A stretch of DNA of 64,000 bases from Microlunatus panaciterrae (lineage in GTDB: Bacteria > Actinomycetota > Actinomycetes > Propionibacteriales > Propionibacteriaceae), in assembly GCF_016907535.1 (NCBI RefSeq), contig NZ_JAFBCF010000001.1, positions 124,001 to 188,000 of the forward strand, read 5' to 3'. The notes under the pieces are model-generated. The model had not been told where the DNA came from. It did not search any database and was given only the letters and a program-made list of their open reading frames with translations. This document shows positions 5,835 to 39,527 of this stretch, in pieces. Both the position numbers and the translations under genes were made by a program. Positions within the stretch are counted from its first letter, which is position 1. Each line of letters opens with the position of its first letter.

Positions 5835-5997
5835 CCCGGTGGTCAGCAGCCCGAGCACATCCACTAGCCGACGTGCCGCACCGGAGAAGCGGGTCCCAGG
5901 CGTCCCCGGGCGTAAGATGGCTCGGGTTTTGTCAAGGGTCCATGGTCCCAAAAGAGCCGTGGACGACGATCGAGAACTGAGGAGCAGTCCCTACCCG

Positions 5998-22848: not shown

Positions 22849-23118
22849 TCAGTCGTGCAGGTGAGCCTCCTTGTGGGTCAGGGCCTCGATGTCCTCGGCC
22901 GCCACGTTGAGCAGGCGATGAGCCAGATCCGAAAGGGCACGAGCCACCGCGATCTCGTCTCCGATCTCCGGTACGTCCCGGTCGCTCGGGTTCAGCCTGG
23001 CGCTGCCCTCCCCGGTCAGTGTGACAACGTCCTTCGGCCGAAGCCTGGTCTCGGCATGCGTGCGACCGTCCCGTTCTCCGATGTAGATGTCGACGGCCCA
23101 GGTCTTCACTTCGTTCAT
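22849..23118 (-). CDS. DUF1876 (Rv1738/Rv2632c-like) protein
   Basis: 89 residues. [19 protein letters not shown] and [20 protein letters not shown] followed by [11 protein letters not shown] are the hallmark segments of DUF1876. The mycobacterial members Rv1738 and Rv2632c are small hypoxia-induced proteins with a fold related to ribosome hibernation factors, and Rv1738 belongs to the DosR regulon. ATG 23118 is chosen with GAGGCAGG upstream; the frame is open to 23157. Two DosR-box-like sites lie upstream (23234 and 23296). Confidence 0.85.
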
Positions 23119-23233
23119 GGTCCTGCCTCTTTCAGCTCCGGCGGCCGACAGCCGCACTCACGTCCTCGTCGATGGTCCGGGTGGAGGCCCCGGCCCCGGC
23201 TCCAGCCTTTCGCCCGACTCGTGTTGCACGGTA

Positions 23234-23247
23234 GGGTCCAAAGCCCC
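23234..23247. promoter_or_regulatory. Weak DosR-like box upstream of DUF1876 gene
   Basis: GGGTCCAAAGCCCC differs from the mycobacterial core GGGACTWWAGTCCC mainly in the outer halves. It lies 116 bases upstream of the DUF1876 ATG. Confidence 0.3.
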
Positions 23248-23295
23248 TCCAGGCCCATCCGGCAGGGTCCTCTGCCGTATCGGGCCGCGGCGCGT

Positions 23296-23309
23296 GGGAC
23301 CAAGGTCCT
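23296..23309. promoter_or_regulatory. DosR-like box upstream of DUF1876 gene
   Basis: GGGACCAAGGTCCT is a near-palindrome matching the core GGGAC-N4-GTCCC in nine of ten outer positions. It lies 178 bases upstream of the DUF1876 start, a gene family controlled by DosR in mycobacteria. Confidence 0.5.
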
Positions 23310-23569
23310 ACTCCAGTGATGGCTATCTGCCCTATCCTCGGCCAGCGAGGCTGAGACAGGCTGAGCCGCATGTCCAAGCAGCCCCTGCCCCATCTCCACC
23401 GGCCCCCGCAAGCACCGGTGCCGAATGGCATTCGGCGTCGACTTCGTCACGACTTGGTGTCCAGGCTGTGTCGCAATTGACCCGCCGCGGCCAGGCGGTT
23501 AACTTCGCCACTGTGCCGTACGGGCACATGAATTCGAGTCCCGCTGACGACTCGGAGAAAGACTGCTGG

Positions 23570-24691
23570 ATGTCTCTGCCGCTGCCGGATCGCCGCTCCA
23601 CCAAATCCCTGCTCGCACTGCTCGTCACCGTCGGGATGTTGATCATGAACCTCACTGTCGGCCCCGAGCGGCAGGCAACCGAGGGGTCGGTTGACGAGAT
23701 CGGCGACCGGGTGGTTGGAGCGCTCGGCACCGGCCGGACCGGCGGCAGCTACCTCGATGAGTCGACTGGCCGGCTCGTCGTCACGGTGACCGATCGGCCA
23801 GCCGCCGAGGTCGTTCGTGCCGCCGGGCTGCAGCCGCAACTGGTGGCCCGTTCGACCCAGAGCCTGGACCGGACGAAGGGTGCTCTCGACGCCTTCGCGT
23901 CCCGCCACGGGGCCGGGCAGGTGCAGAACTGGTACGTGGACGTCGTGACCAACCGGCTCGTCGTCACCAGCCGAGCCGGCGCCACAGATCGCACGACGCA
24001 ACGTTTCCTCGCCGAGGTGAGAAGCTACGCACCGCAGGCGAAGATCGAGCTCGCCCGGGCAACGGTCCGCCCGACCAAGAACCTGCACGGCGGGCAGCAG
24101 GTCGACATGAGCGACGGCTACGTCTGCAGCAGCGGGTTCAACGCGCGAACGACCTCCGGTTCGGCGGTCATGATCACGGCAGGACACTGCGCGGTGGGCA
24201 GGCCGACCTTCTACCACAAGGACCGCAAGATCGGCGCGACTATCAAGTACAGCTTCCCACGCAACGACTACGGCATCGTCCGGGTGAACACCGCCAAGTG
24301 GAAGCCGCGCGCCACCGTGGTGAGATGGGACGGCACTCTCAGGTCGGTCAGCGGCTACAGCAAGGCCGCCGTCGGGTCGAAGATCTGCAAGAGCGGGCAG
24401 ACGTCGCACTGGACCTGCGGCCGGATCAAGGCTTACAACCAGACCGTCAACTACGGTGACGGGCAGATCGTCTCCGGCCTGGTCCGCTACTCCGCCTGCG
24501 TCGAGGACGGCGACAGCGGCGCAGCCGTCATGAGTGGAAGCAAGGCGCAAGGAATCAACAGCGGCGCCGAGCTGTACCAGAAGGGTTCCCGCTGGGTGTG
24601 CGGCTCGAAGGTGGGCGAACCGAATGTGAGCTACTACCAGCCGATCGGCGAGGTCCTCAAGGCGTACAAACTCAAGCTGCTGGTTCGCTGA
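23570..24691 (+). CDS. Secreted S1-family serine protease (streptogrisin-like) with pro-region
   Basis: About 373 residues. A signal peptide (RRSTKSLLALLVTVGMLIMNLTVG) is followed by a pro-region (about 30-170) containing two related beta-alpha units (GRLVVTVTDRPAAEV and NRLVVTSRAGATDR), as in alpha-lytic protease and streptogrisin precursors. The catalytic domain has MITAGHCAVG (His), NDYGIVRVN (Asp) and EDGDSGAAV (Ser). Cys pairs around the His and Ser loops suggest disulfides. ATG 23570 has GGAGAAAG about ten bases upstream; ATG 23528 is in frame but has no such site and would place extra polar residues before the signal peptide. Confidence 0.88.
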   Translation: MSLPLPDRRSTKSLLALLVTVGMLIMNLTVGPERQATEGSVDEIGDRVVGALGTGRTGGSYLDESTGRLVVTVTDRPAAEVVRAAGLQPQLVARSTQSLDRTKGALDAFASRHGAGQVQNWYVDVVTNRLVVTSRAGATDRTTQRFLAEVRSYAPQAKIELARATVRPTKNLHGGQQVDMSDGYVCSSGFNARTTSGSAVMITAGHCAVGRPTFYHKDRKIGATIKYSFPRNDYGIVRVNTAKWKPRATVVRWDGTLRSVSGYSKAAVGSKICKSGQTSHWTCGRIKAYNQTVNYGDGQIVSGLVRYSACVEDGDSGAAVMSGSKAQGINSGAELYQKGSRWVCGSKVGEPNVSYYQPIGEVLKAYKLKLLVR

Positions 24692-24715
24692 CGGCAGCAC
24701 CAGCCGGGGACCGGC

Positions 24716-25168
24716 TCAGCCGTGTTGGCGCGGTTCGAACAGGATGACCGGGATCTGGCGTTCGGTTCGCTGCTGGTACTCGAGGTAGGGCGGGTAGGCG
24801 GCGGACGCCCGCTGCCACCAGGTCTCGCGCTCCTCTCCACTCAGCTCGCGGACCGTCCCGTCGATCACCCGAGCCCCGTCCTGCACGCTGATCGCATCCG
24901 GGTTCGCCTTGACGTTGTGGTACCAGGACGGATGCGTCGGAGCGCCGCCTTGCGAGGCGATCAGCGCATAGCAGCCGTCGTGCTCCACTCTCATCAGCGG
25001 CACCTTGCGCAGCTTGCCGCTCTTGTGCCCACGCATGGTGAACACGACGATGGGCAGTCCGGTGTCGCGGAGAGTGTTGGCCTCCCGGCCCTGGGTGCGC
25101 TCATACTGCTCAACCTGGTCGCGAACCCACTGTGCCGGGCTCGGCTCGTATTCACCTTCCAATGGCAT
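24716..25168 (-). CDS. Deazaflavin (F420)-dependent nitroreductase-family protein
   Basis: 150 residues, a split beta-barrel of the Ddn/FDOR-A type: VEQYERTQGREANTLRDTGLP, VVFTMRGHKSGKLRKVPLMRVE and SQGGAPTHPSWYHNVKANP, the last being the characteristic F420-binding and active-site region. Relatives reduce quinones or nitro compounds with F420H2, so this implies that the host makes F420. ATG 25168 is chosen; upstream in-frame starts at 25174 and 25195 have no better site. It is convergent with the protease. Confidence 0.9.
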   Translation of the reverse strand: MPLEGEYEPSPAQWVRDQVEQYERTQGREANTLRDTGLPIVVFTMRGHKSGKLRKVPLMRVEHDGCYALIASQGGAPTHPSWYHNVKANPDAISVQDGARVIDGTVRELSGEERETWWQRASAAYPPYLEYQQRTERQIPVILFEPRQHG

Positions 25169-25201
25169 GACCACAATGGTAGGCCGTGGCAGCATCGGGC
25201 G

Positions 25202-26551
25202 TCAGCGGGCACTGTGCTGCTGGTAGCGCAGCGAGTCCGGATGCGCCGTGCACTCGGGCCCGATCCTGGACCGGGCCAGCATGCCTTGTTCGCGAAGCTC
25301 AAAGAACCGTGGCAGCACACGGTCGCGCAGGGACCAGGGGTCGATGGTGTTCAGGTAGATCTTCGTGCCGCCCTCAAAGCCCGCGATCGTGGACACCCTC
25401 CACTTGACCATCACCCGCCACGGCATCGGTTCAACCACCCTCGGCGGCTGGTGGTGCCACTCCTCGTTGGTCGGGACCGTCGCGCCGGTAGCCGCGTGAC
25501 AGGCGTGCAGCAGCTCCGACATGGCGCGCAACTCGTCCTCCGAATGCAGCCAGGGCAAGCACGCCGCGCTCTTGGAGTAGACCTCGAGCGTCGGGTAGCG
25601 GTGGCCGAAACCGGCGAAGGCCACCGCGTGATCATTCTCGGCCAGCAGCAGGTCCTGCGCGATGGCCTCGTTCACGGCCGCAGCGTTGAACAGGTCAGGT
25701 CGAGATCGCAGCTGCTCGAGCTCCTGTAACGTCTGGCCGCCGTATTCGTCGATGCCGGCCAGTTGCTTGTGCAGATGGTCGAACGACGCACCTGCCTGTC
25801 GGAGCCAGTTCTGGAACACCGCGACATACCTGACGTACGGATTGGCCTCGTACAGCGCTCGCATCGCCTGAGCGGTGAAGCCCACATAGCGGAAGTGCTC
25901 CTCAGCGGTCAGGCTTCCGCTGTAGGCCAGCTGGTCGTCCCACCCGGCATCGTCGACGAAGTGGCGCCGGGCGACGATCACCTCGTGGCCGCTCGCGAAG
26001 AACGCCTCGGCCCGCTGCAGGAGGTTGTCCTCGGACAGGTGCGGCCACTCGGCCTCCGCCAGGCCGGCGGCGGCCAGCCGACGACGCACGATCGACAGCA
26101 CGTGCCGTCGGCCAGCAGGTGTGGAGACATAGCGGTGTTGCTGCGCACGCAAGGCGTCGGCCGGTTGGTAGCCGTAGTTGGCCCTCCAGTAGTCCAAGGG
26201 CAGGATCTCGAAGAGATTGGGGATCCGCCGGAACTCCGCGACCGTTTCGTCCAGCTCCTCGGCCAGGAGCCCGTCGAGCTGCTGCCAACGCTCCCCGGTG
26301 CCCCCGATGGAGCGGACCAGGCGTGCCTTCTCCGGGGGTGTGTCCAGATAGCGGCGTTCGCAGAATGCGCAGTACCGACCAGCCAGCGACCGGTCCAGCG
26401 GTGCCGCCGGCACCGACTCCTGCCCGAGCGGTCGATCCGCGCGACCCGGCACCGTCCACACCTCGGTGCCGGTGAAAGGGTTCCGCTGCTTCACAGTCCC
26501 ATCGGCCAACCGTGTCAGCACCGGGAACCGGGTGGGGTCTGACGCGGACAT
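25202..26551 (-). CDS. DUF4921 (galactose-1-P uridylyltransferase-like) protein
   Basis: About 449 residues. Relevant segments are YCAFCERRY (possible zinc Cys pair), FEILPLDYWRANYGYQP, VIVARRHFVDDA and AGASFDHLHKQLAGIDEYG. The last matches the HIT/GalT-like His-x-His site, and the overall pattern fits DUF4921. The reaction is unknown; a nucleotidyl transfer or phosphorylase role is suggested by the GalT-like fold. ATG 26551 is chosen because MSASDPTRFPVLTRL begins the conserved region; the frame is open to 26593. Confidence 0.8.
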   Translation of the reverse strand: MSASDPTRFPVLTRLADGTVKQRNPFTGTEVWTVPGRADRPLGQESVPAAPLDRSLAGRYCAFCERRYLDTPPEKARLVRSIGGTGERWQQLDGLLAEELDETVAEFRRIPNLFEILPLDYWRANYGYQPADALRAQQHRYVSTPAGRRHVLSIVRRRLAAAGLAEAEWPHLSEDNLLQRAEAFFASGHEVIVARRHFVDDAGWDDQLAYSGSLTAEEHFRYVGFTAQAMRALYEANPYVRYVAVFQNWLRQAGASFDHLHKQLAGIDEYGGQTLQELEQLRSRPDLFNAAAVNEAIAQDLLLAENDHAVAFAGFGHRYPTLEVYSKSAACLPWLHSEDELRAMSELLHACHAATGATVPTNEEWHHQPPRVVEPMPWRVMVKWRVSTIAGFEGGTKIYLNTIDPWSLRDRVLPRFFELREQGMLARSRIGPECTAHPDSLRYQQHSAR

Positions 26552-26709
26552 GATCACCACCGTAGTGCCGCACCGCCGTCGAGGGATGGACACCGATCGC
26601 GCCGCCTCAGTCAGTGGCGTCTTCTCCAGCCCGGATGCGCACGCGAGGGACCAACGCCTCTGGTGGCCCCGGGGCGCCCGAGGGACGCTGGGGTGAGGAG
26701 ATGGTTGTG

Positions 26710-27387
26710 ATGCGTTATCTGCTGCTGCTCATCCCGCTGGCCGTAGCCGTGGCCTTCGGGTACCTGATGAACCGGGTGCGTGACCGTCAAGCGCGAGCCA
26801 CCGCCCTGGCGGCGCTCGGGTTGTCGCTCACCGTCGGACCGGTGGGATTTGTGATGCTCTTCCTGGTGGGTGAGACCGCGACCGACCCGGGCGGCTGGCT
26901 GGCGCTCGGTCTCATCGTGGCCTGGCTGGTGCCGACGGTCGTACTGTGCGGGATCGCCTACCTGTGGCCCAACATCGCCGTGCCCGTGCTGGCCGTGTCG
27001 ATGCTGCCGGCTCTGGCGCTGGGCGTATGGGGGTTGGTGGACTTCCACGGGCTGGGGAGCTGGGAGGACCGCACCGGCCCCGTCGTTCTCATCGCCGTCA
27101 TCGTGCCGGCCGTGGCGATGGCGCTCCTCGGCCTCAGCAGACTGACAGTCGCGGGAGCCATGATGGTGGCCGTCTCGGTGCTGCCGATTGTGCTGCCGGC
27201 CATCGGAGCAGGCGCGGAGGCTGGTCGGGCGCTGACCATCGGGACGCTGGACCTCCCGATCCTGATCAGTGGTCTGCTCTACCTGTGGGCGGGGCACCTC
27301 ACCAAGGGCGCCGATTCTCCCTTGAACGGACTACGACGTAAGCCGCACCTGTTCACCGGTCATCGGACCCGGCACGCCCCGGCCTGA
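26710..27387 (+). CDS. Uncharacterised integral membrane protein
   Basis: 225 residues with about seven hydrophobic segments (YLLLLIPLAVAVAFGYL, LGLSLTVGPVGFVMLFLV, LIVAWLVPTVVLCGIAYLW, AVPVLAVSMLPALALGVWG, VVLIAVIVPAVAMALLGL, MMVAVSVLPIVLPAIGAG, PILISGLLYLWAG). I do not recognise a family. ATG 26710 has GAGGAG nine bases upstream; ATG 26701 would sit directly against it. The last 35 bases overlap the 3' end of the convergent MFS gene. Confidence 0.72.
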   Translation: MRYLLLLIPLAVAVAFGYLMNRVRDRQARATALAALGLSLTVGPVGFVMLFLVGETATDPGGWLALGLIVAWLVPTVVLCGIAYLWPNIAVPVLAVSMLPALALGVWGLVDFHGLGSWEDRTGPVVLIAVIVPAVAMALLGLSRLTVAGAMMVAVSVLPIVLPAIGAGAEAGRALTIGTLDLPILISGLLYLWAGHLTKGADSPLNGLRRKPHLFTGHRTRHAPA

Positions 27388-28630
27388 CCTCCCGGCTGTC
27401 GGGCACCGTCGCGTTGTTCAGCTTCGGTGCTGCGGTCGGGCCGCCCTGAGCCTCCTGGTGGTGAACGCCGGCCGGCGAGATGGTCCGCGTCAGCAGTAGG
27501 CCGGCGAGTGCGGCCAGCGGCGCCACGGCGAGACCGAACCGCAGGCTGGTCTGGTCAGCGATGACGCCGATCACCGGCGGCGACAGCAGAAAGCCGACCC
27601 TGGTGATCCAGCCCACCACAGCGAGCCCCACTCCGTTGCCCAGACCGGGGACCTCGTCAGCCGCATGCATCGCCATCGGGATCATCACGGCAGCGCCGAG
27701 GCCGGCCAGAGCGAAGCCGACATAGGTCGTCACGAGACCGGGCCACGCGACGGCGACGCCGAGGCCGGCCGCAGCCAAGATCATGCCGAGCCTGGTGACC
27801 CGCCGGGGGCCCAGCCGCTCGACGGCCGGATCGCCGAGGAAGCGTCCGACCGTCATCGCGCCCATCATGGCGACGAAGCCACTGCCGGCGGCGGCCACCG
27901 GCGCTCCCAGACCAGCAGTGACCCAGAGGGCACCCCAGGAGTTGCCCACATCTTCCACTGCAGCACCGACCACCGCGATACCACCGATGGCCAGCAGGCG
28001 GACAGCCATCCTGCGTGCTCCGACTCCGGCTGACGTTGGGGTCCGCTCAAGGTGATCAGCCACCCGGTCGGGACCGGCCAGCATCCACCGGGACACCACG
28101 AGGGCCAGGATGATCATCAGCACACCCACCACCCCGAGGTGAATTTTGATCGGGATCCGCAGACCGGCTGCGGCTGAGCCCATCAACCCACCGACCACCG
28201 CACCGACGCTCCACACACCATGCAGCGAGTTGATGATCGACCTGCCCAGCAGGCGTTGCACCCGGAGACCGTGTGCGTTGCTGCCGATGTCGATGACCGA
28301 GTCGAGCATGCCGCAGACGAAGAAGGCGAGTGCGAGCAGGACCCAGGACGGGGCCCAGCCGATCGCTGTGAAAGCCACCGCCAGCACCAGCGTGCCGACC
28401 ACCGGCACCCGGGCCGAACCCCATCGTGACACCAGCCAACCGGCGAACAGTCCGGCCAGCAGGGCACCGACCGGATGCGCCGCCAGTGCAGTTCCCAGTG
28501 CCGCGTTCGACAGTCCGAGTGAGGCCTTGAGCTCGGGATAACGCGGCAGCACGTTCGCGAAGATGACACCGTTGCTGAAGAACATGGCGGACACGGCCAG
28601 CCTTGCCTTCTTGACCTCCGCGGCACTCAT
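27353..28630 (-). CDS. MFS transporter
   Basis: About 425 residues with 12 predicted membrane segments in two halves of six. The loop after segment 2 reads GWLVSRWGSARVPVVG, the conserved MFS motif A position, and the N-terminus FFSNGVIFANVLPRYPELK resembles YbjJ-type carriers. The substrate is unknown. The C-terminal tail of about 40 residues is polar. ATG 28630 starts just before the first segment; an upstream in-frame start at 28669 adds a non-membrane extension. It overlaps the convergent gene by 35 bases. Confidence 0.88.
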   Translation of the reverse strand: MSAAEVKKARLAVSAMFFSNGVIFANVLPRYPELKASLGLSNAALGTALAAHPVGALLAGLFAGWLVSRWGSARVPVVGTLVLAVAFTAIGWAPSWVLLALAFFVCGMLDSVIDIGSNAHGLRVQRLLGRSIINSLHGVWSVGAVVGGLMGSAAAGLRIPIKIHLGVVGVLMIILALVVSRWMLAGPDRVADHLERTPTSAGVGARRMAVRLLAIGGIAVVGAAVEDVGNSWGALWVTAGLGAPVAAAGSGFVAMMGAMTVGRFLGDPAVERLGPRRVTRLGMILAAAGLGVAVAWPGLVTTYVGFALAGLGAAVMIPMAMHAADEVPGLGNGVGLAVVGWITRVGFLLSPPVIGVIADQTSLRFGLAVAPLAALAGLLLTRTISPAGVHHQEAQGGPTAAPKLNNATVPDSREVRPGRAGSDDR

Positions 28631-28724
28631 GGGGTCGAGTATGCCGTCCGCCGGCGCCCTCCTGCGCACCGGCGTGGGTCGAGCGGCTGATCACCACCGC
28701 TTCACTCAGTAGGGACCCCGGGCG

Positions 28725-29006
28725 CTATTTCTGCTGCAGGATGGTCCGCCGACGCTGGTACTCCTCCTCGTCGATGTCACCTCGGGCGAAGCGCTCGTTG
28801 AGCACCCGCTCGGCATCAGACACACCCCCGTGCTCAACCTGGCCCGGCCGCGGCTGGCCACCGTCGGCACGCCGCCGGAGAATCCAGACCGCCCCCACCG
28901 CCACAACAGCGATGATCAGCAGCGCCAACAACCCGGCGAGCAGCAGGCCTCCCCAGCCCATTCCGCCGTGCATGCCCCAACCGTTACCCCACGGTTCGCC
29001 CCACAT
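28725..29006 (-). CDS. SHOCT-domain small membrane protein
   Basis: 93 residues. A Gly/Trp/Met-rich start (MWGEPWGNGWGMHGGMGWGG) precedes one membrane helix (LLLAGLLALLIIAVVAVGAVWIL, about 21-43), then a linker and a C-terminal SHOCT domain (AERVLNERFARGDIDEEEYQRR). SHOCT domains are short oligomerisation modules. ATG 29006 has GGAGG nine bases upstream. A DosR-like palindrome lies 80 bases upstream. Confidence 0.85.
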   Translation of the reverse strand: MWGEPWGNGWGMHGGMGWGGLLLAGLLALLIIAVVAVGAVWILRRRADGGQPRPGQVEHGGVSDAERVLNERFARGDIDEEEYQRRRTILQQK

Positions 29007-29085
29007 GATGATCACCCTCCAGTCGATGATCCGAGTCTGCCCGCCGTTCCCGGCTGGCGGCAGAGCAGATCGGCTCTGAGCTGCA

Positions 29086-29099
29086 GGACCATGGTCCCG
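29086..29099. promoter_or_regulatory. DosR-like palindrome upstream of SHOCT gene
   Basis: GGACCATGGTCCCG contains the perfect 12-base palindrome GGACCATGGTCC and resembles DosR boxes. It lies 80 bases before the ATG at 29006 (-). Confidence 0.4.
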
Positions 29100-29190
29100 C
29101 TCCAGCGGTCGCTGACACGCCTTGTGGGCGGGATCGCTACCGACCTCGGTAGGGATCCCACCCACAGGCCGCCGAGGCCCCTGGCTCGGC

Positions 29191-30033
29191 TCAGAGCGCG
29201 TGGTCTCCGCGAGCCGTCATCGCGGCGATCTCGGCTGCGAACTTGATCTCGGAGTCGTCCTCTGGTTGGTAGTCGATCACCCGACGAGCGTTGGTGATGC
29301 TCCAGAACGTACGGGCGTTGCCGGAAACTCCGTAGAAGATCTGGAACGGAACCCCGAACTCGTCGTCGATGTCCTCGGTGTCGATGGACTTCACGAACAG
29401 TTGCTGCAGATCGCGCTCGCTGATGTAGCCGGCGATGTCTCGGAGGTAGTGCTTCAGCGGCCGATTGGTGAAGTCCGCCGCCGACACCTCACGCGGGACC
29501 ACGATCCGCAGCTGGACCACCTCAAGGGCTCGTCCGATCGAACCGCAGGCGTAGAGGAACCCGAGCGACTCGTAGGCGGCCTTCGCCCAGCCATAGAACG
29601 TGTCCGGCCGGGGGTAGTCATCGGTGTTGATCCGGTCGATCAGCTTGGCATAGTAGGGCTGCTCGTACCATTTCGACGCCTGGTTCGTGCTGGCGCACAC
29701 CACCCGCTTGACCCCGGTCTGCACAGCGGTCTCGTACACCCGCTGCGTCATGTCGACGTTTCGACGTTCGTCGGCGTACGTGGGCGGGGACCCGGCCCGC
29801 ACGTAGCCGGTGTGGACGATCGTGTCGACCCCCTGGCAGAGCTCCTCGAGACGGGCCCGGTCTCCCTCCAGGAGGTCGAAGACCTCCACTCCTTCAACCC
29901 GGTGCCCGTCCCGGTCGACGTCCGTGACATCGAGGAGCCGGAGGTCATAGTGGCTCCGCAGTGCCGGCAGGAGCTGGCCGGCGATGCTCCCACAGGCGCC
30001 GGTGAGCAGGACTGGCTTGCGTGCTGTCGTCAT
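29191..30033 (-). CDS. NAD-dependent epimerase/dehydratase family protein
   Basis: 280 residues, an extended SDR: LLTGACGSIAGQLLPAL (glycine-rich NAD loop, about 9-25), LLDVTDVDR, VDTIVHTGYV, CASTNQASKWYE and FYGWAKAAYE (catalytic Tyr-x-x-x-Lys). VKRVVCASTN matches the Ser position. Closest in pattern to uronate dehydrogenase-like proteins, but the substrate is unproven. ATG 30033 begins at the beta strand; upstream in-frame sequence to 30588 is the antisense of the dehydrogenase gene. Confidence 0.85.
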   Translation of the reverse strand: MTTARKPVLLTGACGSIAGQLLPALRSHYDLRLLDVTDVDRDGHRVEGVEVFDLLEGDRARLEELCQGVDTIVHTGYVRAGSPPTYADERRNVDMTQRVYETAVQTGVKRVVCASTNQASKWYEQPYYAKLIDRINTDDYPRPDTFYGWAKAAYESLGFLYACGSIGRALEVVQLRIVVPREVSAADFTNRPLKHYLRDIAGYISERDLQQLFVKSIDTEDIDDEFGVPFQIFYGVSGNARTFWSITNARRVIDYQPEDDSEIKFAAEIAAMTARGDHAL

Positions 30034-30144
30034 CGGACCATCCTCGGCGGCGCGTGCTGCAGACTCAAGTCGGGCACGCCGCCGCGGCGCCGGAGGCAAC
30101 AGATGCGATAGTTGCCCGGTTGCCCACTGCAGAGGAGTCCGCTC

Positions 30145-31146: not shown

Positions 31147-31173
31147 CCAGCTGGGTGTGATCGGGCACGGCAG

Positions 31174-34100: not shown

Positions 34101-35115
34101 GCATGACGCCCGCCTTGGCCTGCTGCCCGATGGTGAGCAGGCCGGACAGCATCCGCACCGGTGCGACCATCGAGGCCAGGTAGGTGGAGAAGGCCAGGAA
34201 CGTCCCCAAGGTGATCTGCTGGTGCAGGGCGAGCCAGCCACCCAGACCGAGCACTCCGACCTGTCCGAGCGCCGGGATCATCTGCATGATCGGGTTGTAG
34301 ATGCTGTTGAGCCGTATCGTCCGCAGCCGCGAGGCGTACAACCGACGCGCAGAGCTATCCAGTCGGTCGATTTCGCGTGACTCCTGGCCGAACCCCTTGA
34401 CGACCCGCACGCCGGTCACCGCCGACTCGACGACGCCGGCCACCTCACCGACCTGCTGCTGCGCATCCCAGTTGGCAGGAAAAAGCGTCCCGCGACCGCG
34501 AAGCGCCACCCACCACAGAGCGGGTCCGACCAGCAGGGCGACAATCGTCAGCAGCGGCGAAAGGGTGAGCATGATGATCACCGACATCACGAACAGCAAC
34601 AGGTTCGACGTCATCATCGGCACCATGCCGAGCAGACCCTGCACCAGGTTCAGATCCGAGATGGAACGGCTCACCAGCTGTCCGGGGGCGAGGTCATCCT
34701 GTTTGGCGCCACCCATCCGCTCCAGCGAGCGGAAGACGTCCTGCCGCAGGTCATGCTGGACGTCGATGGAGAGCTTGCCACCCAGGTAACGGCGGATGAA
34801 CCCGGCCCCGAAGTTGGTGACGCCCGCAGCCAACAGAGCGATGATCCAGGGCAGCATCGGCTGCGACCGGGAGAGAATCACATCGTCCACCACAGCCCGG
34901 ACAATCAACGGCGTTACGGCGTTGGCAGCCATGCCCAGCAGTGCGCCCCCGAAGGCGAAGGCCACGAGGTGCGGGTGCCTCAGGCAATGACCGGCCAACC
35001 GACGGATCCAGCCCGACTCGCGGGTTGGTCCAGGGGCGGGCTGCCAGTGCGGTCGGTCGTCGTCGCTCACCGCGTCGCGGGCGGTCTGGGTGTCCGAACC
35101 CACCGTAGGTGTCAC
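31174..35115 (-). CDS. Single-chain ABC exporter with two TMD-NBD modules
   Basis: 1313 residues: TMD1 (about 45-340), NBD1 (GTAGSGKST, LSGGQRQRVAL, LLVLDDATSAID), a linker of about 140 residues, TMD2 (about 740-1040) and NBD2 (GETGAGKST, LSAGQRQLLAL, LLLLDEATAALD). NBD1 carries Asp in place of the catalytic Glu after Walker B, the asymmetry of heterodimeric exporters such as TM287/288 and BmrCD; here both halves are fused. Drug or lipid export is likely. The linker contains three copies of RPEPVEG from a 36-base DNA repeat (33184-33274) and a Gly-rich stretch. GTG 35115 overlaps the MarR gene stop by four bases, so the regulator and exporter are co-translated. Confidence 0.92.
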   Translation of the reverse strand: MTPTVGSDTQTARDAVSDDDRPHWQPAPGPTRESGWIRRLAGHCLRHPHLVAFAFGGALLGMAANAVTPLIVRAVVDDVILSRSQPMLPWIIALLAAGVTNFGAGFIRRYLGGKLSIDVQHDLRQDVFRSLERMGGAKQDDLAPGQLVSRSISDLNLVQGLLGMVPMMTSNLLLFVMSVIIMLTLSPLLTIVALLVGPALWWVALRGRGTLFPANWDAQQQVGEVAGVVESAVTGVRVVKGFGQESREIDRLDSSARRLYASRLRTIRLNSIYNPIMQMIPALGQVGVLGLGGWLALHQQITLGTFLAFSTYLASMVAPVRMLSGLLTIGQQAKAGVMRVFEVIDAEPGVADSPDAVSLPPGPVDVRFDNVTFGYPRSAPALEQVSFRVAAGETLALVGTAGSGKSTVSLLLPRFYDVDSGSVRIGGYDVRDLTLESLRRGIGVVFEDSFLFSDSVRNNIAYGRPDASMAEIEAAARAAQAHDFIVDLPKGYDSVVGEQGLTLSGGQRQRVALARALLIDPQLLVLDDATSAIDARIEAEIHDTLRQVMSGRTTILIAHRRSTLGLADRIAVLDRGRIVDIGTHDELQGRCALYNTLLSAPTDDLDRLPEQSPRPEPVEGLELAARPEPVEGLELAARPEPVEGPESQPSGVTASAWVKPERDPSELALAQAQGASSMTSTGFGRAAGPGGAGRGGGGGAGGMFAALPPTPELLAQVAKLPPAIDEPLVDPDEIRRRDPDFRFRHLLRLFRVPLLVGLVLVAADALAQLVLPAAIRLGVDSGITERRGDVIWLAAGIALVVTLVDWVVSIAQTRVTGRTGEGILYLLRMKLFAHLQRLGLDFYEREMGGRIMTRMTTDVDALSTFVQTGLATAIVSVLSFGGVLVALLVINLPLALVVLTVLPFVVAATLVFRARSSVAYQVSREKVSAVNADLQENVAGIRVAQAFRREEHNCHRFAQLSDGYRVARTRSQRYIATFFPFIAFVSDVATALVLGFGAGRVQSGALTAGALIAFMLYVNMFFSPVQQLSQVFDGYQQAVVGLRRITGLLRTEPSTPDADTPVAVPGSLTGVVELDGVRFAYSGAETEALQGISFTVPAGQRVAVVGETGAGKSTVMKLLARFYDPTDGVVRADGVDLRNFDLAGYRHRLGYVPQEAYLFAGTVRDAIAYGRPDATDAEVEAAARAVGAHEMVTRLRDGYHHQVGDRGRSLSAGQRQLLALARAECVRPDLLLLDEATAALDLASEAAVTRAEDLLARRRTTVVIAHRLTTAARADRVLVMDHGRLVEDGSHTELLQRDGHYARLWRAFEGAPH
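33184..33274. repeat. Three 36-bp tandem copies of the dispersed REP-like repeat, in frame in the exporter linker
   Basis: CCCTTCGACRGGCTCAGGG occurs at 33184 and 33220, with a variant (CCCTTCAACGGGCTCGGGG) at 33256, at an exact 36-base period. It encodes RPEPVEGLELAA units on the minus strand. The same 19-mer, in either orientation, lies at 38543-38875 and 55687-55761. Confidence 0.9.
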
Positions 35116-35630
35116 GCGGTTCTGGCCCCTTCCGGTGCGGGCGGTCGATAGGCGGGCGGTTGAGGCGTACGGCGGCCGGCCCGACGTTCAGACAGGTCGG
35201 TATCGAGCGCCGACGCGAAGGCCGCGAAGCAGCTGACAAAGGCGCTGGGATCGTCCATCCGCCCCGTCACCTCGGCGAGCCGTTCGGCGTACGCCCGGTC
35301 GGCGCGTCCCAGTGCCTCCCTGCCGGCGTCGGTGATCTGTAGCCAGGAGGCTCGGCGGTCTCCGTCATCTGATCGGCGTCGAACATGGCCGAGGCAGGCG
35401 AGCACCTCCACCGCCGTGCTTATCGCCGGCTTGGAGACCGCAAGACGTTCGGCCAGGGCAGTCGAACGTTCATCGCCGGCATCCAGCAGCGTCAGCAGCC
35501 GGTACTGCGGCAGGGTCAGCCCGCTGTCCACCCGATCCAGCATCCGGGCGGTACGCACCAGGGTTCTGGCCACGTCCACGTGCGCCGAGGTAGGTACGGA
35601 GAGCTCCGAGCTGCACATAGTTAACAACAT
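35112..35630 (-). CDS. MarR-family transcriptional regulator
   Basis: 172 residues. The winged helix is clear: LTLPQYRLLTLLDAG, TALAERLAVSKPAISTAVEVLACLGHVRRRSDDGDRRASWLQITDAGREAL. The C-terminal tail is Pro/Arg-rich. ATG 35630 has AAGG six bases upstream and lies inside an inverted repeat (35620-35634), suggesting self-repression. Its stop overlaps the exporter GTG, so it most likely controls the exporter in response to a ligand. Confidence 0.9.
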   Translation of the reverse strand: MLLTMCSSELSVPTSAHVDVARTLVRTARMLDRVDSGLTLPQYRLLTLLDAGDERSTALAERLAVSKPAISTAVEVLACLGHVRRRSDDGDRRASWLQITDAGREALGRADRAYAERLAEVTGRMDDPSAFVSCFAAFASALDTDLSERRAGRRTPQPPAYRPPAPEGARTA

Positions 35631-35634
35631 TAAC
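35620..35634. promoter_or_regulatory. Candidate MarR operator over the marR start codon
   Basis: GTTAACAACATTAAC pairs GTTAA with TTAAC around a five-base centre, is AT-rich in a GC-rich region, and overlaps the ATG at 35630. Binding by the adjacent MarR protein is inferred. Confidence 0.5.
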
Positions 35635-35665
35635 GACCTTGGATGTGCCCGGCAAGACACTCGTC

Positions 35666-35680
35666 GGGACTTAGGTCATC
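35666..35680. promoter_or_regulatory. DosR-like box 1 upstream of flavodoxin-like gene
   Basis: GGGACTTAGGTCATC: the left half GGGACTT matches the mycobacterial consensus exactly and the right half GGTCAT partly. It is 114 bases upstream of ATG 35794. Confidence 0.5.
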
Positions 35681-35687
35681 ACCCGCT

Positions 35688-35702
35688 GAGGACCTAGGCC
35701 CA
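35688..35702. promoter_or_regulatory. DosR-like box 2 upstream of flavodoxin-like gene
   Basis: GAGGACCTAGGCCCA, 20 bases after the first box. Paired boxes are usual at strongly DosR-induced promoters. The start codon is 92 bases downstream. Confidence 0.4.
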
Positions 35703-35793
35703 TGGACCGCCCAAGGCGCCACGCACCAGGCTGGAGTAGAGCCATCCAGTGTCGATTCTCGACCGCGGTGTGCCAGAGCCGAGGAGAAGCCAG

Positions 35794-36342
35794 ATGGAGA
35801 GAGTCCTCGCCGCCTATGCGGCACGAACGAGTTCAACTGGTGAGATCGCCCTGGCGATCGGTGAGGTGCTCAGCCGAGCCGGCTTCCACGTCGACGTCCG
35901 ATCCTGCGCGCGGGCGAAGGACGCCGATCATTACGCCGCCGTCATCATCGGCAGCGGGTGCGCCCTGGGCCGTTGGGATGATGACGCCCTGGACTACCTG
36001 GTCCGGCATGCTCCGCAGTTGTCCTTGCGGCCGACCTGGCTCTTTCAGAACGGGCCGCTGCAGAGTTCCGGCACGGGCACCGGGGTCGCGGCCGGGCAAC
36101 ACGCGGTGCCGCAGGTCGTCCGGACCCTTGCCGACCGCTATGACCTGGCGCCTCCGGTGATCTTCGACGCCCGCAGCGACCTCGGGAGCCGGCCGCTGAC
36201 GCTGCGGCGGTGGATGTCTGGTGAGCCCGCACCCGTCGAGCTCACCGGCCCGGACCGGGTCCGCACCTGGGCAGGTGACATCGCCGGCCTGCTGACCGGG
36301 GCGATGGCTTCGCCGTTGTCGGCCCTGCCAGCGCACAGCTGA
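35794..36342 (+). CDS. Flavodoxin-domain protein
   Basis: 182 residues. VLAAYAARTSSTGEIALAIGEVLSRAG (4-30) is the FMN phosphate-binding loop of a flavodoxin/HemG-like fold (usually YxSxxGSTxxIA), DHYAAVIIGSGCALGRW the second strand and flavin loop, and LRPTWLFQNGPL the third. The C-terminal half RTLADRYDLAPPVIFDAR resembles HemG-type flavodoxin domains. A redox role in low-oxygen metabolism fits its place next to Hsp20 and USP genes. GAGGAGAAG precedes ATG 35794. Confidence 0.82.
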   Translation: MERVLAAYAARTSSTGEIALAIGEVLSRAGFHVDVRSCARAKDADHYAAVIIGSGCALGRWDDDALDYLVRHAPQLSLRPTWLFQNGPLQSSGTGTGVAAGQHAVPQVVRTLADRYDLAPPVIFDARSDLGSRPLTLRRWMSGEPAPVELTGPDRVRTWAGDIAGLLTGAMASPLSALPAHS

Positions 36343-36372
36343 TTGGTCGAGGCCCATTGACCCGAAGATCTC

Positions 36373-36387
36373 CGGACCTTCGGCCCT
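36373..36387. promoter_or_regulatory. DosR-like box upstream of hsp20
   Basis: CGGACCTTCGGCCCT, 78 bases before the Hsp20 ATG; compare the core GGGACYTTNGTCCC. One of a set of similar sites upstream of neighbouring stress genes. Confidence 0.4.
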
Positions 36388-36464
36388 CCCCGAAGCCTAA
36401 CCCCGGCGGAAGGGTGGAGGTGAACGGACGAAGTGCGTCCGTGCAACTCACCGAGGAGCACCAG

Positions 36465-36947
36465 ATGACCGTCAACAAGCCCGAACCCGAGTCGGCAACG
36501 CCCACCACCCCGGCCGTCAATCGACCGACCCGCGACCTGGGTCAGATGCTGCTGCGCGGATGGCCCTTCGGGGACGTGACGTGGCCGTTCCGCGACGTGG
36601 AGCTGCCGGTCACCCCGTCGATCAAGGTCGAGGAACGCTACGAGGACAACCAGGCCATCATCCGTGCCGAGATCCCCGGGGTCGATCCGGAAAAGGACAT
36701 CGAGGTGACCGTCGACGAGGGCATCCTGACCATCAAGGCCGAGCGTCGGCAGGACACCAAGGAAGAGACCGAACACGGCTACCGCAGCGAGTTCCACTAC
36801 GGAAAATTCGTTCGACAGCTCCGGCTTCCCAAGGGCACCTCGCCTGAGGTGGTCTCCGCCACGTACACCGATGGTGTGCTGGAGGTCCGGATGCCGATGC
36901 CCGAGAAGGAGGCGGGAGTCCGCCGCGTCGAGGTGACTCGAGCCTGA
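36465..36947 (+). CDS. Hsp20/alpha-crystallin family small heat-shock protein
   Basis: 160 residues. A disordered start (1-20) and MLLRGWPFGDVTWPF precede the alpha-crystallin domain: IKVEERYEDNQAIIRAEIPG, IEVTVDEGILTIKAERRQ, FHYGKFVRQLRLPKG and ATYTDGVLEVRMPM. ATP-independent chaperone that holds unfolded proteins; the mycobacterial relative HspX is a leading DosR target. ATG 36465 has GAGGAG upstream. A perfect 15-bp terminator hairpin follows at 37016. Confidence 0.94.
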   Translation: MTVNKPEPESATPTTPAVNRPTRDLGQMLLRGWPFGDVTWPFRDVELPVTPSIKVEERYEDNQAIIRAEIPGVDPEKDIEVTVDEGILTIKAERRQDTKEETEHGYRSEFHYGKFVRQLRLPKGTSPEVVSATYTDGVLEVRMPMPEKEAGVRRVEVTRA

Positions 36948-37015
36948 CAACCCGTCCTGCAGGGAGGTGGTCCGCAGGCGACACACCCCTCGCCCGGCCG
37001 ACCGGGACACCGATA

Positions 37016-37052
37016 GGCAGGATGGCATCGTCTCCAGCGATGCCATCCTGCC
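37016..37052 (+). terminator. Perfect 15-bp terminator hairpin after hsp20
   Basis: GGCAGGATGGCATCG (37016-37030) pairs exactly with CGATGCCATCCTGCC (37038-37052) around a seven-base loop, followed by TTGCTGTG. It lies 69 bases after the Hsp20 stop. Confidence 0.8.
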
Positions 37053-37133
37053 TTGCTGTGCCGGGAGCCGGGAACGGAACGCCCAGCCCCGGGGGGCGCC
37101 CTGACCAGGAATGAGGGCCGACATCCCGACATC

Positions 37134-37148
37134 GAGGCTAAGGTCCTC
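37134..37148. promoter_or_regulatory. DosR-like box upstream of tandem USP gene
   Basis: GAGGCTAAGGTCCTC lies 58 bases before ATG 37207. The right half GGTCCTC and the spacing match the other sites; the left half has two mismatches to GGGACT. Confidence 0.35.
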
Positions 37149-37206
37149 GTTTCGCAGGGCCTGAAGCCTCTGCTGTAGCTGGACTCCGAGGACCAATGTT
37201 GAAGAC

Positions 37207-38094
37207 ATGAACTCCACCACCACGGCCCCCTTGCCCGTCATCGCCTGTATCGACGGAACCAAGAAATCGGACCGGGTCGTGGCCTGGGCAGCTCACCAGG
37301 CCAGGGTCCAGCAGACGGAACTGGTGGTCGTCCAGGTGCGGCCGTTCACGCTGCAGACCTCACCCTCCAGGGCGGGTCGCGGTGCGGACATCACCGCGGT
37401 GGCCGACTATGCGGCGGCCGCGACTCGACGGCACCCGAGCATCCCGGTCACGGCGCGGCTCGTCAGGGGGCGGGTGAGCGAAGAGTTGATCAACCTGAGC
37501 CGGCATGCGGCCCAGCTGGTGATCGGCAGTGACCGGACCCGCGACCACGACACCGAGGGTCGGCTTGCCTCGCTCGGCGAAGTGCTCGCAGTCAGCGCCC
37601 TGTGTCCCGTGGTGGTGGTGGCCTCCTCGATGACGGGAGCGCAGTCCCCACCCCGGGTGGTGGTGGGTTGGGCACCGAATGCGCCGGCGAGCGACTATGC
37701 GCTGCGCGAGGCCGCCGCCCAGGCCTACGCCCGATCAGCCCAGTTGATGGTGATCATCCTGAACGACTTCCAACCTGTCCCCCGCAACACGCGAACGGTG
37801 CCGGCGGTGGTGACGACCCCACTCCACGTTCTGGTGGAGGAACTGCAACACCTCTATCCGGGGTTGGCCATCCGTACCCGCCGCGGCAAGGGCCGGGTTG
37901 CTGAAGGCCTGGCCACTGCGGCAATCGGTGCGGAGCTTCTCGTCGTGGGGTGTCATCACTCGGCGAACCCGTGGAGTCTGCGTACGGGTCCGACCGCAGT
38001 GACACTGATGCGTACCTCGCCCTGCCCACTGATGCTGGTCGGCACCCGCAGTCGTCGGACTCGGCCGGTGGCCGCCAGTGCCCTGCGCAGGTGA
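37207..38094 (+). CDS. Tandem universal stress protein (two USP domains)
   Basis: 295 residues with two USP folds: domain 1 from IACIDGTKKSDRVVAWAA to LCPVVVVAS (about 10-140) and domain 2 from VVVGWAPNAPASDYALREAAAQA to CPLMLVGTR (about 148-282). The nucleotide loop G-x2-G-x9-G is degraded in domain 1 (IGSDRTRDHDTEG) and altered in domain 2 (VGCHHSANPW), so ATP binding may be weak. Two-domain USPs are typical actinobacterial dormancy proteins. The start is the ATG at 37207 after GAAG; a hairpin terminator follows at 38102. Confidence 0.9.
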   Translation: MNSTTTAPLPVIACIDGTKKSDRVVAWAAHQARVQQTELVVVQVRPFTLQTSPSRAGRGADITAVADYAAAATRRHPSIPVTARLVRGRVSEELINLSRHAAQLVIGSDRTRDHDTEGRLASLGEVLAVSALCPVVVVASSMTGAQSPPRVVVGWAPNAPASDYALREAAAQAYARSAQLMVIILNDFQPVPRNTRTVPAVVTTPLHVLVEELQHLYPGLAIRTRRGKGRVAEGLATAAIGAELLVVGCHHSANPWSLRTGPTAVTLMRTSPCPLMLVGTRSRRTRPVAASALRR

Positions 38095-38101
38095 TCATTA
38101 C

Positions 38102-38133
38102 GCGGCCATGATCGATTGAGTGATCATGGCCGC
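38102..38133. terminator. Hairpin between convergent USP and lipoprotein genes
   Basis: GCGGCCATGATC pairs exactly with GATCATGGCCGC around an eight-base loop. It lies between genes ending at 38094 (+) and 38156 (-), so it can serve both directions; no T-run is present. Confidence 0.6.
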
Positions 38134-38155
38134 AGTGGCTGCCCGGCAGTTGCTG

Positions 38156-38467
38156 CTATCCAGTGCGTCGGCTTCGACGCGCCGCTGCCGATGACGACCC
38201 GGCGCCACCGGAGAAGGTGGCAGACACCCCGATCAGGAATCCGAAGTCGTACCAGTGCCCGTTGTTGTGGATGTCGTAGACCCCCACCGCGTCATTGAAC
38301 AGCGAGACGATGAACGTGATCGGCAAGATCAACCCATGCCACAGTCCCAACCAGAACCCAGCTGGATTCGCGGTGGGCACCCGGCTCGGTCCCGCCGCAC
38401 AACTGGTCACGGCCAACAGCAACAGTGCTGCCAGGACGCCGATCCCCACTACCTGAGAGCGCTTCAT
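38156..38467 (-). CDS. Small membrane lipoprotein of unknown function
   Basis: 103 residues. A signal peptide with lipobox (VGIGVLAALLLLAVTSC, Cys about 23) is followed by PAGFWLGLWHGLILPITFIVSLFN and VGVYDIHNNGHWYDFGFLIG. This combination recurs in short uncharacterised bacterial membrane proteins. The C-terminus is Ser/Ala/Arg-rich. A membrane-anchored role is all that can be said. The start is the ATG at 38467; the repeat-rich region lies upstream. Confidence 0.78.
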   Translation of the reverse strand: MKRSQVVGIGVLAALLLLAVTSCAAGPSRVPTANPAGFWLGLWHGLILPITFIVSLFNDAVGVYDIHNNGHWYDFGFLIGVSATFSGGAGSSSAAARRSRRTG

Positions 38468-38591
38468 GTCCCATCCCCCTTTAGATCAGCGAAACTTCCC
38501 TGCCCCTGGGCATGTCCACGTGCCCTGAATCTGTTCCAAGTGCCCTCAGCCTGTCGAAGGGTCCGCGCCCTGAGCCTGTCGAAGGGCTCGC

Positions 38592-38672
38592 AAGAAAACT
38601 CATCAGAACGCGAGTTTTATCGCCCTTTCGGCCCAAAAGCTTCTCCAGAATTCGCGTTCTGTCGAGTTTTCG
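38592..38672. repeat. Second dispersed repeat family (core AACTCGACAGAACGCGA), inverted pair
   Basis: A diverged copy (AACTCATCAGAACGCGAG) lies at about 38596 and an inverted copy (TTCGCGTTCTGTCGAGTTTT) at 38651-38670. The same core occurs twice at 55556-55651. Confidence 0.75.
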
Positions 38673-38818
38673 ACTTGGGTGAGGCGTACACGCTCGGTTC
38701 GAGGTTCCGACTTGGGTGAGGCGTACACGCTCGGGTCGAGTTTTCGACTTGGGTGAGGCGTACGCGCTCGGGTCGAGCATTCGACTGCGTGAGGCGTACG
38801 CGCCCTGAGCCTGTCGAA
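38671..38818. repeat. 37-bp tandem array, about four units
   Basis: Units begin CGACTTGGGTGAGGCGTAC at 38671, 38708 and 38745, and a shortened one (CGACTGCGTGAGGCGTAC) at 38782: an exact 37-base period. A period not divisible by three argues against coding. The last unit runs into a REP-like 19-mer. Confidence 0.9.
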
Positions 38819-38889
38819 GGGCACCCGGTCTTCGACAGGCCTAGACCAGGGACGCCCGTCTTCGACAGGCTCAGGCTGCTGCGGTGTGT

Positions 38890-39375
38890 TCAGAGGGTGG
38901 ACTCAGCTACGGGCCGGTCCTCCTTGGCCTGCTCCTCCAAGCGGTGGTCCGGCACCGCGACCACCGGGCAGGTGGCGTGGCTGAGGCAGTGATGGCTCAC
39001 CGAACCGGAGCGCAGGCGGCCGATGCCCGTGTGTTCGCGGGTGCCGATGACCAGCATCCTGGCGTGATGTGACTGCTGCACGAGCACCTCGCCCGGATCC
39101 CCTTGGGCATACTCCAGCGACCAGCTGGCGCGTGGGTTCACCGAGTCGAACACCCGCTGTACCTCAGGATCCTCGTACTCCACGGCCGGGACCGGTTCGA
39201 GGTCTTGGGCAGGGAACCCCCTGGTCCACACCCGCTCGGCCTCCGGCCTGTCCGCGTAGACATTCATCGCACGTAGGTGCAGGTTCGCCGTCCGTGCGTA
39301 CTCGGCCGCCCAATGCATGGCAGCGCGGGCCGATGCAGAGTCATCGATCCCTACTACGATCTCATTCCTCACCAT
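38890..39375 (-). CDS. Universal stress protein (single domain)
   Basis: 161 residues. IVVGIDDSASARAAMHWAAEYA forms the first strand and helix. VIGTREHTGIGRLRSGSVSHHCLSHATCPVVAV is the intact ATP-binding loop (G-x2-G-x9-G-S/T) and final strand. Unlike the tandem USP at 37207 it should bind ATP. ATG 39375 has GAAGGG eight bases upstream; ATG 39381 is in frame but too close. A DosR-like site lies 66 bases upstream. Confidence 0.92.
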   Translation of the reverse strand: MVRNEIVVGIDDSASARAAMHWAAEYARTANLHLRAMNVYADRPEAERVWTRGFPAQDLEPVPAVEYEDPEVQRVFDSVNPRASWSLEYAQGDPGEVLVQQSHHARMLVIGTREHTGIGRLRSGSVSHHCLSHATCPVVAVPDHRLEEQAKEDRPVAESTL

Positions 39376-39440
39376 GTCCATAGCCCTTCTGCGGGAGTTT
39401 CGGTACACCTCCAGCATGGCTGTGAGCCATCCTCGCGGTC

Positions 39441-39455
39441 AGGACCAAAGGTCAT
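39441..39455. promoter_or_regulatory. DosR-like box upstream of single-domain USP
   Basis: AGGACCAAAGGTCAT contains GGACC-AAA-GGTC, close to a perfect inverted repeat; 66 bases upstream of the USP ATG (39375, -). Confidence 0.5.
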
Positions 39456-39511
39456 CGCGGCTGGGGTACTTGGTCCCGCCGCGATCTCTAGGACGAGGTT
39501 GTCCCGTAGTC

Positions 39512-39527
39512 AAGGACTAAAGACCCT
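39512..39527. promoter_or_regulatory. DosR-like box heading a gene-free transcript
   Basis: AAGGACTAAAGACCCT is one of the best matches here to the mycobacterial box (GGACTAAAG centre, two mismatches on the right). TAGGTT at 39550-39555 lies 22 bases further on, the position expected for a -10 with the box over the -35. Confidence 0.55.

Follow-up and report, generated by a model that had tools for sequence, protein, structure and literature searches.

Do the stress genes clustered in a 64,000-nucleotide stretch of the Microlunatus panaciterrae chromosome belong to a regulon of the DosR type? The stretch (C1:124001-188000 of a complete, 4,068,014-base Propionibacteriaceae-type genome; hereafter the window) had been proposed to carry palindromic boxes close to the mycobacterial DosR site before DUF1876, SHOCT, flavodoxin, Hsp20 and Usp genes. 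The sequence evidence supports this original prediction, with the refinement that the regulon appears to be genome-wide rather than limited to the window. Because the boxed stress genes occur in a genome that encodes two DosR proteins with matching sensors, they very probably form part of a low-oxygen survival regulon; that it is a DosR-type regulon of known kind, including the strong sites of the window, we consider highly probable.

The box consensus, GGGACYWWRGTCCC, was derived from the Mycobacterium tuberculosis motif after the window sites had been seen, and was confirmed on two sites of the dosR1 cluster. A symmetric 16-base scoring matrix was then built from 27 non-window sites matching GGGACYWWRGTCCC or nearly so (15 from this genome, 12 from relatives). 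Window E values are given per 64 kb and come from 50 dinucleotide shuffles of the window. Genes were called chromosome-wide with our own codon-usage script instead of a published gene finder, and gene starts are therefore approximate.

The prevalent form of the box here is GGGACCWWGGTCCC. Five sites head the ranking of the window. The best, AGGACCATGGTCCC (29085..29098; 19.5 bits, E 0.02), ends 77 bp before a SHOCT-domain gene (28725..29006, minus strand; Pfam PF09851, 4.8e-8). It is followed by GGGACCAAGGTCCT (23296..23309; 17.2 bits, E 0.04), which is one mismatch from the consensus, lies 176 bp upstream of an Rv2632c-like gene (22849..23118, minus strand; PF08962, DUF1876, Pfam 5.5e-33) and is common to this gene and a divergent alpha-lytic-protease-like gene at 23468. 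The third site, AGGACTAAAGACCC (39513..39526; 15.8 bits, E 0.06; five mismatches to the M. tuberculosis 20-mer), stands 94 bp before a Usp gene (38890..39417, minus strand; Pfam PF00582, 2.3e-22), and the fourth is a site at 5936 (E 0.06). The fifth, GGGACTTAGGTCAT (35666..35679; 15.1 bits, E 0.14), is the first of a tandem pair between MarR and flavodoxin genes, 113 bp before the flavodoxin-domain gene (35794..36342, plus strand; Pfam PF12724, 3.3e-8). Sites at 23234, 26647, 39464, 36373, 37134, 42134, 3978 and 35689 come next, in that order. The first of these (23234..23247; 12.1 bits, E 0.56) lies 62 bp from the 23296 box as a second, weaker site of box-like sequence, and 39464..39477 (9.6 bits, E 2.2) is a weak box before the Usp gene at 38890..39417. 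Three further sites have E values of 2.9-4.8 each by sequence alone: CGGACCTTCGGCCC (36373..36386; 9.1 bits), 77 bp before the Hsp20 gene (36465..36947, plus strand; Pfam PF00011, 6.6e-22); a box-like site (37134..37147; 8.8 bits), 58 bp before a two-domain Usp gene (37207..38094, plus strand; Pfam PF00582, 2.2e-18, in two stretches); and the secondary box AGGACCTAGGCCCA (35689..35702; 7.8 bits), 23 bp from the 35666 box.

The site strings quoted in the original prediction are present within about 1 bp of the places given for them, and their quality is uneven: those at 29085, 23296, 39513 and 35666 are strong, those at 36373, 37134 and 35689 are weak, and the one at 39441, with only 3.4 bits, is not a good box. 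The proposed spacing of 58-114 bases before a start codon at 35.6-39.6 kb holds for the main sites of the cluster and fails for 39441, which is some 24 bp away from the start as called. The sites at 5936, 23234 and 39464 had been overlooked.

Such palindromes could be chance matches in G+C-rich DNA that were noticed for the stress genes nearby, and the weak sites at 36373, 37134, 35689 and 39464, with E values of 2-5, are what this explanation would lead one to expect, as is the slight or absent enrichment of patterns taken from the literature. Against it stand the five leading sites, each with E below 0.15, and the ranking of the genes themselves. Among the 54 window genes with a full upstream region, the six stress genes named in advance rank 1, 3, 4, 7, 11 and 12, the remaining six of the top twelve sharing a box between divergent genes. 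The stress genes exceed both the other 48 window genes (Mann-Whitney p 2.5e-4) and 164 genes from ten random 20 kb stretches (p 2.4e-5); non-stress genes of the window also lie slightly above the random genes (p 0.03). The expected enrichment of the motif over controls was accordingly seen with shuffles, other window genes and random stretches alike. In an independent though weaker test, the M. tuberculosis 20-mer at up to five mismatches has two matches in the window, both in the stress cluster (35663 and 39510). We consider a chance origin very improbable, also in view of the near-zero controls in the genome-wide and cross-species comparisons and of the paralogous footprint described below.

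Across the genome the perfect consensus occurs six times against 0.48 expected from base composition (Poisson p 1.1e-5; reversed control, 0), and all six copies are intergenic and precede a gene. They lie at C1:38250, before a pyridoxamine-oxidase-like gene and then two more genes, the last a Usp gene; at C1:2778475 (L111:4475-4488), 126 bp before the gene of a 51-amino-acid hydrophobic protein; at C1:3208678, before a MarR gene; at C1:3758293, before a two-domain Usp gene; at C1:3901315, between genes judged by eye to be PEP-synthase/PPDK-like and DinB-like, with an Acg-family oxidoreductase gene after the latter; and at C1:3912627, between dosR1 and a gene, DoxX-like by eye though without a Pfam or NCBIfam match, that has a Usp gene after it. 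Boxes with up to one mismatch number 22 against 7 in the control, the window contributing 3 where 0.35 would be expected. A gene start lies downstream of 18 of the 22, the nearer gene being at most about 260 bp away; the box at 677564, which belongs to these 18, overlaps the last bases of another gene. Of the other four, three are internal to called genes and one sits where two genes converge.

The candidate targets include the kinds typical of DosR systems (Usp, Hsp20, Acg-type oxidoreductase and Rv2632c-type), of which the Usp, Hsp20 and DUF1876 kinds had been pointed out in the original prediction, with the reservation that the Hsp20 box is weak. The genome has 19 Usp-domain matches, representing 12 genes in 11 units, and eight units carry a box of at least 8.8 bits (seven at 10 bits or more, plus the window gene at 37207 with 8.8); among random genes, 5 of 164 attain 8.8 bits. 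Four of these eight boxes (38250, 680133, 3758293 and 3912627) belonged to the matrix training set, and 3912627 counts as a Usp box only on condition that the DoxX-like and Usp genes share a transcript. The second Rv2632c-like gene (C1:1000231) has a box of 12.7, matched by 1 of 164 random genes; before the second Hsp20 gene of the genome no box was found. A weaker box (C1:3908948, at least 12 bits) stands 61 bp upstream of the phosphoketolase gene that precedes dosR1.

Which regulator could read these boxes? As stated in the original prediction, the window holds no response regulator of this type: all 10 GerE matches of the genome lie elsewhere, among them the DosR homologue whose absence would have counted against the proposal. 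There are in fact two DosR orthologues and two DosS-type kinases. DosR1 (C1:3911917-3912570, 217 amino acids) and DosR2 (C1:674152-674847, 231 amino acids) both have DevR (3c3w) as best PDB match, with 240.7 and 247.9 bits (E 1.1e-70 and 7.4e-73); the runner-up, VraR, reaches 145.3 and 151.8 bits, leaving DevR ahead by about 95 bits. The nearest named DosR sequence, from a Propionibacteriaceae metagenome-assembled genome, is 72% identical in a search that may omit the window's own species, and neither protein has an above-cut-off NCBIfam match among the 25 families listed. DevR residues D8, D9, D54, T82, K104, K179, K182 and N183 are identical in DosR1, DosR2 and the corresponding protein of G041, a genome from the same genus group. 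We take K179 and N183 to be DNA-contact residues of DevR. Roles are described for positions 8, 9, 54 and 104 (PMC4082495), for T82 (PMC4973870) and for K182 (PMC5999986).

Each regulator gene lies near a kinase gene, and both pairs sit in Usp clusters outside the window. The kinases, one adjoining dosR2 (C1:672512-674176) and one about 1.8 kb downstream of dosR1 (C1:3914395-3916101), share the arrangement GAF-GAF-HisKA_3-HATPase_c. For the former, the best matches are the GAF-A domains of DosT and DevS (1.3e-43, with a query frame 28 residues longer than the later gene call). Residues aligned with the haem ligand His147 and the distal Tyr169 of DosT (roles given in PMC4082495) are kept in both kinases, which are predicted to bind haem; the numbering offset was chosen to place His147 at the second histidine of HHPP.

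The boxes might instead serve another regulator that recognises a similar palindrome, for example a MarR protein or a different LuxR protein, while DosR acts elsewhere, as the motif published for Microlunatus PolR would suggest. PolR is reported to bind GTTCACnnnnnGTTCAC (PMC6754071), a repeat present in 10/10 DosR-bearing family genomes; in addition, one perfect box precedes a MarR gene and the 35666 box adjoins another. The palindrome nevertheless tracks DosR. Of 97 family genomes, ten (G000, G018, G041, G059, G074, G088, G005, G015, G087 and G073) encode a DosR orthologue that shares 51% identity or more with DosR2; in the other 87 the best DosR2 matches have E values of 1e-33 to 2e-48 and are about 37-46% identical among the matches listed. 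A perfect box is found in 6 of the 10 DosR-bearing genomes and in 4 of the 87 others (p 3.8e-5). In G059, G074, G087 and G088 the perfect box has a DosR or DosR-like gene no more than 2 kb away (in G088, a 48%-identical copy); in G018 it does not. In 12 regions examined, of which L249 was chosen for its box, 24 near-consensus sites were found against 5 for the reversed motif, and in G041 the box GGGACTATCGTCCC lies between dosR and a DoxX-like gene, the same place as the perfect box here.

The association extends to other actinobacteria, in which the box often precedes dosR itself. Across 80 named loci (the best 80 of 576 relatives), the form GGGMCNWWNGKCCC gave 136 strand matches in 42 loci, against 4 in 2 loci for the control, and was not found in the other 38; an even looser pattern was not found in nine Streptomyces/Kitasatospora loci (L131, L134-L137, L144, L175, L179 and L193). 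Although these loci are 85.5% coding, 64 of the 68 GGGMCNWWNGKCCC places are intergenic, 57 of the 64 having a start within 300 bp at a median distance of 75. The neighbours, judged by eye among the 45 of 64 places listed, include dosR, Usp, Acg-type, pyridoxamine-oxidase-like, cytochrome-bd-like and phosphoketolase-like genes. Together with the likeness of the box to the DevR and OsdR motifs and the retention of the DNA-contact lysines and asparagine, this makes a different reader of the boxes quite improbable.

A further argument for DosR-type sites comes from a paralogue. The window flavodoxin shares 44% identity with a second flavodoxin, encoded at C1:671288, where the genes downstream are, in order, a pyridoxamine-oxidase-like gene, dosS2, dosR2 and one for a P-type ATPase. 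The upstream regions of the two flavodoxin genes share 76 of 171 columns, distributed as 12/14 in the first box, 13/16 in the second and 51/141 elsewhere. Tandem boxes kept before paralogous flavodoxin genes thus support both the 35666 site and the weak 35689 site. DosR2 may thus be autoregulated, but the 190 bp gap before dosS2 leaves room for another promoter. Pairs of a strong and a weak site within 70 bp number 12 against 1.2 expected, and four of them (one strong-strong pair being counted from both ends) are spaced 22-23 bp. This is the top second-site offset for 25 sites of this genome and for 10 of the genus (z 2.6 each) and is not the top offset in 57 named sites (top +43; -22 third), and the spacing is therefore no more than suggestive. 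DevR is known to bind tandem sites cooperatively (PMC4973870).

Do the weakly boxed Hsp20 and Usp (37207) genes belong to the regulon? Their membership is less certain than that of the genes with strong boxes. Only the boxes at 29085, 23296, 35666 and 39513 may be real, with both genes outside the regulon; the low scores of 36373 and 37134, of a level seen in random genes, fit this, as does the lack of a box before the other 10 Hsp20 loci examined, one of them in this genome. The 36373 site is, on the other hand, one base from the asymmetric GGGACCTTCGGCCC, which occurs exactly in 19 of the 80 named DosR loci (control, 0), and it agrees at 15 of 16 bases with the SCO5979 site, which lies in an OsdR-bound region (PMC5069765). 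Distances of 58 and 77 bp are also typical. We therefore regard exclusion of the two genes as unlikely, while giving it real weight. Footprinting with orthologues of the Hsp20 and Rv2632c-like genes failed: the window Hsp20 is at most 43% identical to its best match elsewhere, and Rv2632c-like genes occur in one of 10 genomes searched, with no PF08962 gene in the nine others. At Usp loci of relatives an upstream box of at least 10 was present in 5 of the 30 loci examined (4 genes) among more matches listed, which indicates that most Usp genes of relatives are not boxed.

Several results weigh against a DosR-type regulon. The training sites of the matrix were picked by a consensus set after the window and dosR-cluster sites had been seen, so that scores are partly circular. 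At up to six mismatches the M. tuberculosis 20-mer finds 7 window matches against 5.8 expected (random stretches, 18 per 200 kb; the reversed 20-mer, 1 window match), and the Streptomyces OsdR matrix recovers only 36373 among the originally predicted sites. Three of the 11 Usp units have no box, the operon start of two of them lying outside the DNA examined. G041, G005, G015 and G073 have a DosR orthologue and no perfect box; one-mismatch boxes lie near the orthologue in G041, G005 and G073. No consistent -10 spacing was detected, TAnnnT elements showing no clear peak relative to the box across oriented gene-site pairs, 77 of them from named loci and 35 of our own. Finally, PolR, apparently the DosR1 orthologue, is reported to bind the different motif GTTCACnnnnnGTTCAC (PMC6754071). 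As detectors in their own right, the OsdR matrix and the 20-mer at up to six mismatches were rejected; the pattern GGGACYNNNGGTCC was mis-spaced (150 forward against 238 control matches) and dropped, and GGACYWWRGTC was too short to discriminate (20 and 15 matches against 15 and 16).

Compared with the DosR/DevR system of M. tuberculosis (DosS, DosT and DosR), the system here has the same NarL-type regulator, with DevR as its closest PDB structure, the same GAF kinases with a haem histidine and distal tyrosine, a palindromic GGGAC-N4-GTCCC core, tandem sites and, as candidates, the same Usp, Hsp20, Acg-type and Rv2632c-type targets. For M. tuberculosis the motif is given as TTSGGGACTWWAGTCCCSAA, with Rv1738, Rv2031c, Rv2032 and Rv2623 among the targets (PMC2275270). 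The system here differs in having two DosR genes, each near a kinase gene, in a free-living-type genome, and in its box, mostly GGGACCWWGGTCCC rather than GGGACTWWAGTCCC. OsdR/OsdK of Streptomyces coelicolor likewise comprises a DevR orthologue, with Usp, nitroreductase, pyridoxamine-oxidase and pyruvate-phosphate-dikinase targets, and has the consensus AGGGCCGATCGGCCCT (PMC5069765); apart from the Hsp20 site, its matrix does not rank the boxes found here. Mycobacteria and Streptomyces have been the main subjects of work on the dormancy regulon, which would thereby extend to a Propionibacteriaceae-type lineage with two regulator-sensor pairs, for which a box consensus and candidate targets are now available. 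The asymmetric GGGACCTTCGGCCC, moreover, recurs at DosR loci of several actinobacterial families.

The regulators, the kinases, their key residues and the enrichment, position and conservation of the box are features of the DNA itself; from them we infer that oxygen is sensed, that DosR binds the boxes and activates the genes, and by which of the two regulators a given box is read. When oxygen is scarce (or CO or NO is present), the haem GAF domains of the two DosS-type kinases would leave their oxygen-bound off state. The kinases would then autophosphorylate and pass phosphate to the conserved Asp54 of DosR1, DosR2 or both. DosR dimers would bind GGGACCWWGGTCCC-type palindromes, mostly 40-180 bp before their targets, with a second dimer 22-23 bp away at some promoters, and would activate Usp, Hsp20, flavodoxin, Rv2632c-like, SHOCT, pyridoxamine-oxidase-like and Acg-type genes.

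How is the published PolR motif to be reconciled with these palindromes? Binding of PolR to GTTCACnnnnnGTTCAC at phosphate genes was reported from electrophoretic mobility shift assays, DNase footprinting and chromatin immunoprecipitation with quantitative PCR, and PolR and PolS of Microlunatus phosphovorus are MLP_RS10490 and MLP_RS10500 (PMC6754071). The order dosR, DoxX-like, dosS in G041 fits this numbering, and we infer that G041 is M. phosphovorus or very near it. Its PolR-like protein is the sister of DosR1 (tree support 0.94), and its locus carries palindromic boxes, whereas PolR is reported at a direct repeat. The tree used 16 of the 80 named loci; deep support is weak (0.48 for the placement of DevR), and a Micromonospora row (branch 1.3, among G018b/G088b) was disregarded as probably a frame or gap fault.

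The repeat GTTCACnnnnnGTTCAC is not confined to genomes with a DosR/PolR orthologue. It occurs in 64 of the 97 family genomes, namely 10/10 with an orthologue and 54/87 without (p 0.012), and is thus commoner with DosR but not dependent on it. Thirteen places were examined, ten of them hand-picked, not random, in genomes without an orthologue: five of these ten precede phoU, two precede phosphate-binding-protein-like genes and three precede others. In G041 it stands before phoU and a phosphate transporter gene (L305:3380 and L304:3469), and in the window's genome the one examined place precedes a gene without a named family match. The repeat looks like a phosphate box, presumably akin to the PhoP repeat of Streptomyces, and PolR may still bind there. 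Since it is common without DosR, often before phosphate genes, the assignment of the PolR motif deserves a retest; the published motif and the palindromic boxes at what is apparently the polR locus are in testable conflict. Among the papers listed in a literature search, no other describes a DosR box in Propionibacteriaceae or Microlunatus.

The phosphoketolase, pyridoxamine-oxidase-like and dosR1 genes stand in a row (C1:3909023-3912570), an order also seen in G041. Acetyl phosphate is a product of phosphoketolase, and it is possible that it serves as a phosphodonor for DosR. Tentatively, and with rather less than even confidence, we suggest a wider picture: the two DosR-DosS pairs would share one box, the genome-wide low-oxygen regulon would have taken in the Rv2632c-like, Hsp20 and dosR1-adjacent phosphoketolase genes, acetyl phosphate could charge DosR, and the PolR motif would be the phosphate box of another regulator. 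If so, it would be necessary to look again at whether PolR controls polyphosphate directly.

The remaining leading site of the window, GGGTCCATGGTCCC (5936..5949; 15.7 bits), lies between two divergent large genes with teichoic-acid-type domains, whose NCBIfam TarF-type matches are below cut-offs. Its membership is uncertain: it could mark a cell-wall branch of the regulon or be due to chance. The gene divergent from the 23296 box (23468-24691) encodes an alpha-lytic-protease prodomain, and secreted proteases are also among the predicted OsdR targets. A hemerythrin-domain gene (22354-22794) adjoins the Rv2632c-like gene and has no high-scoring box before it. Between the Usp genes, at 38520-38870, short interspersed repeats (gagcctgtcgaagg and a tcgacttgggtgaggcgtacacgctcgg unit) were seen by eye, and a frame at C1:3935891 resembles them.

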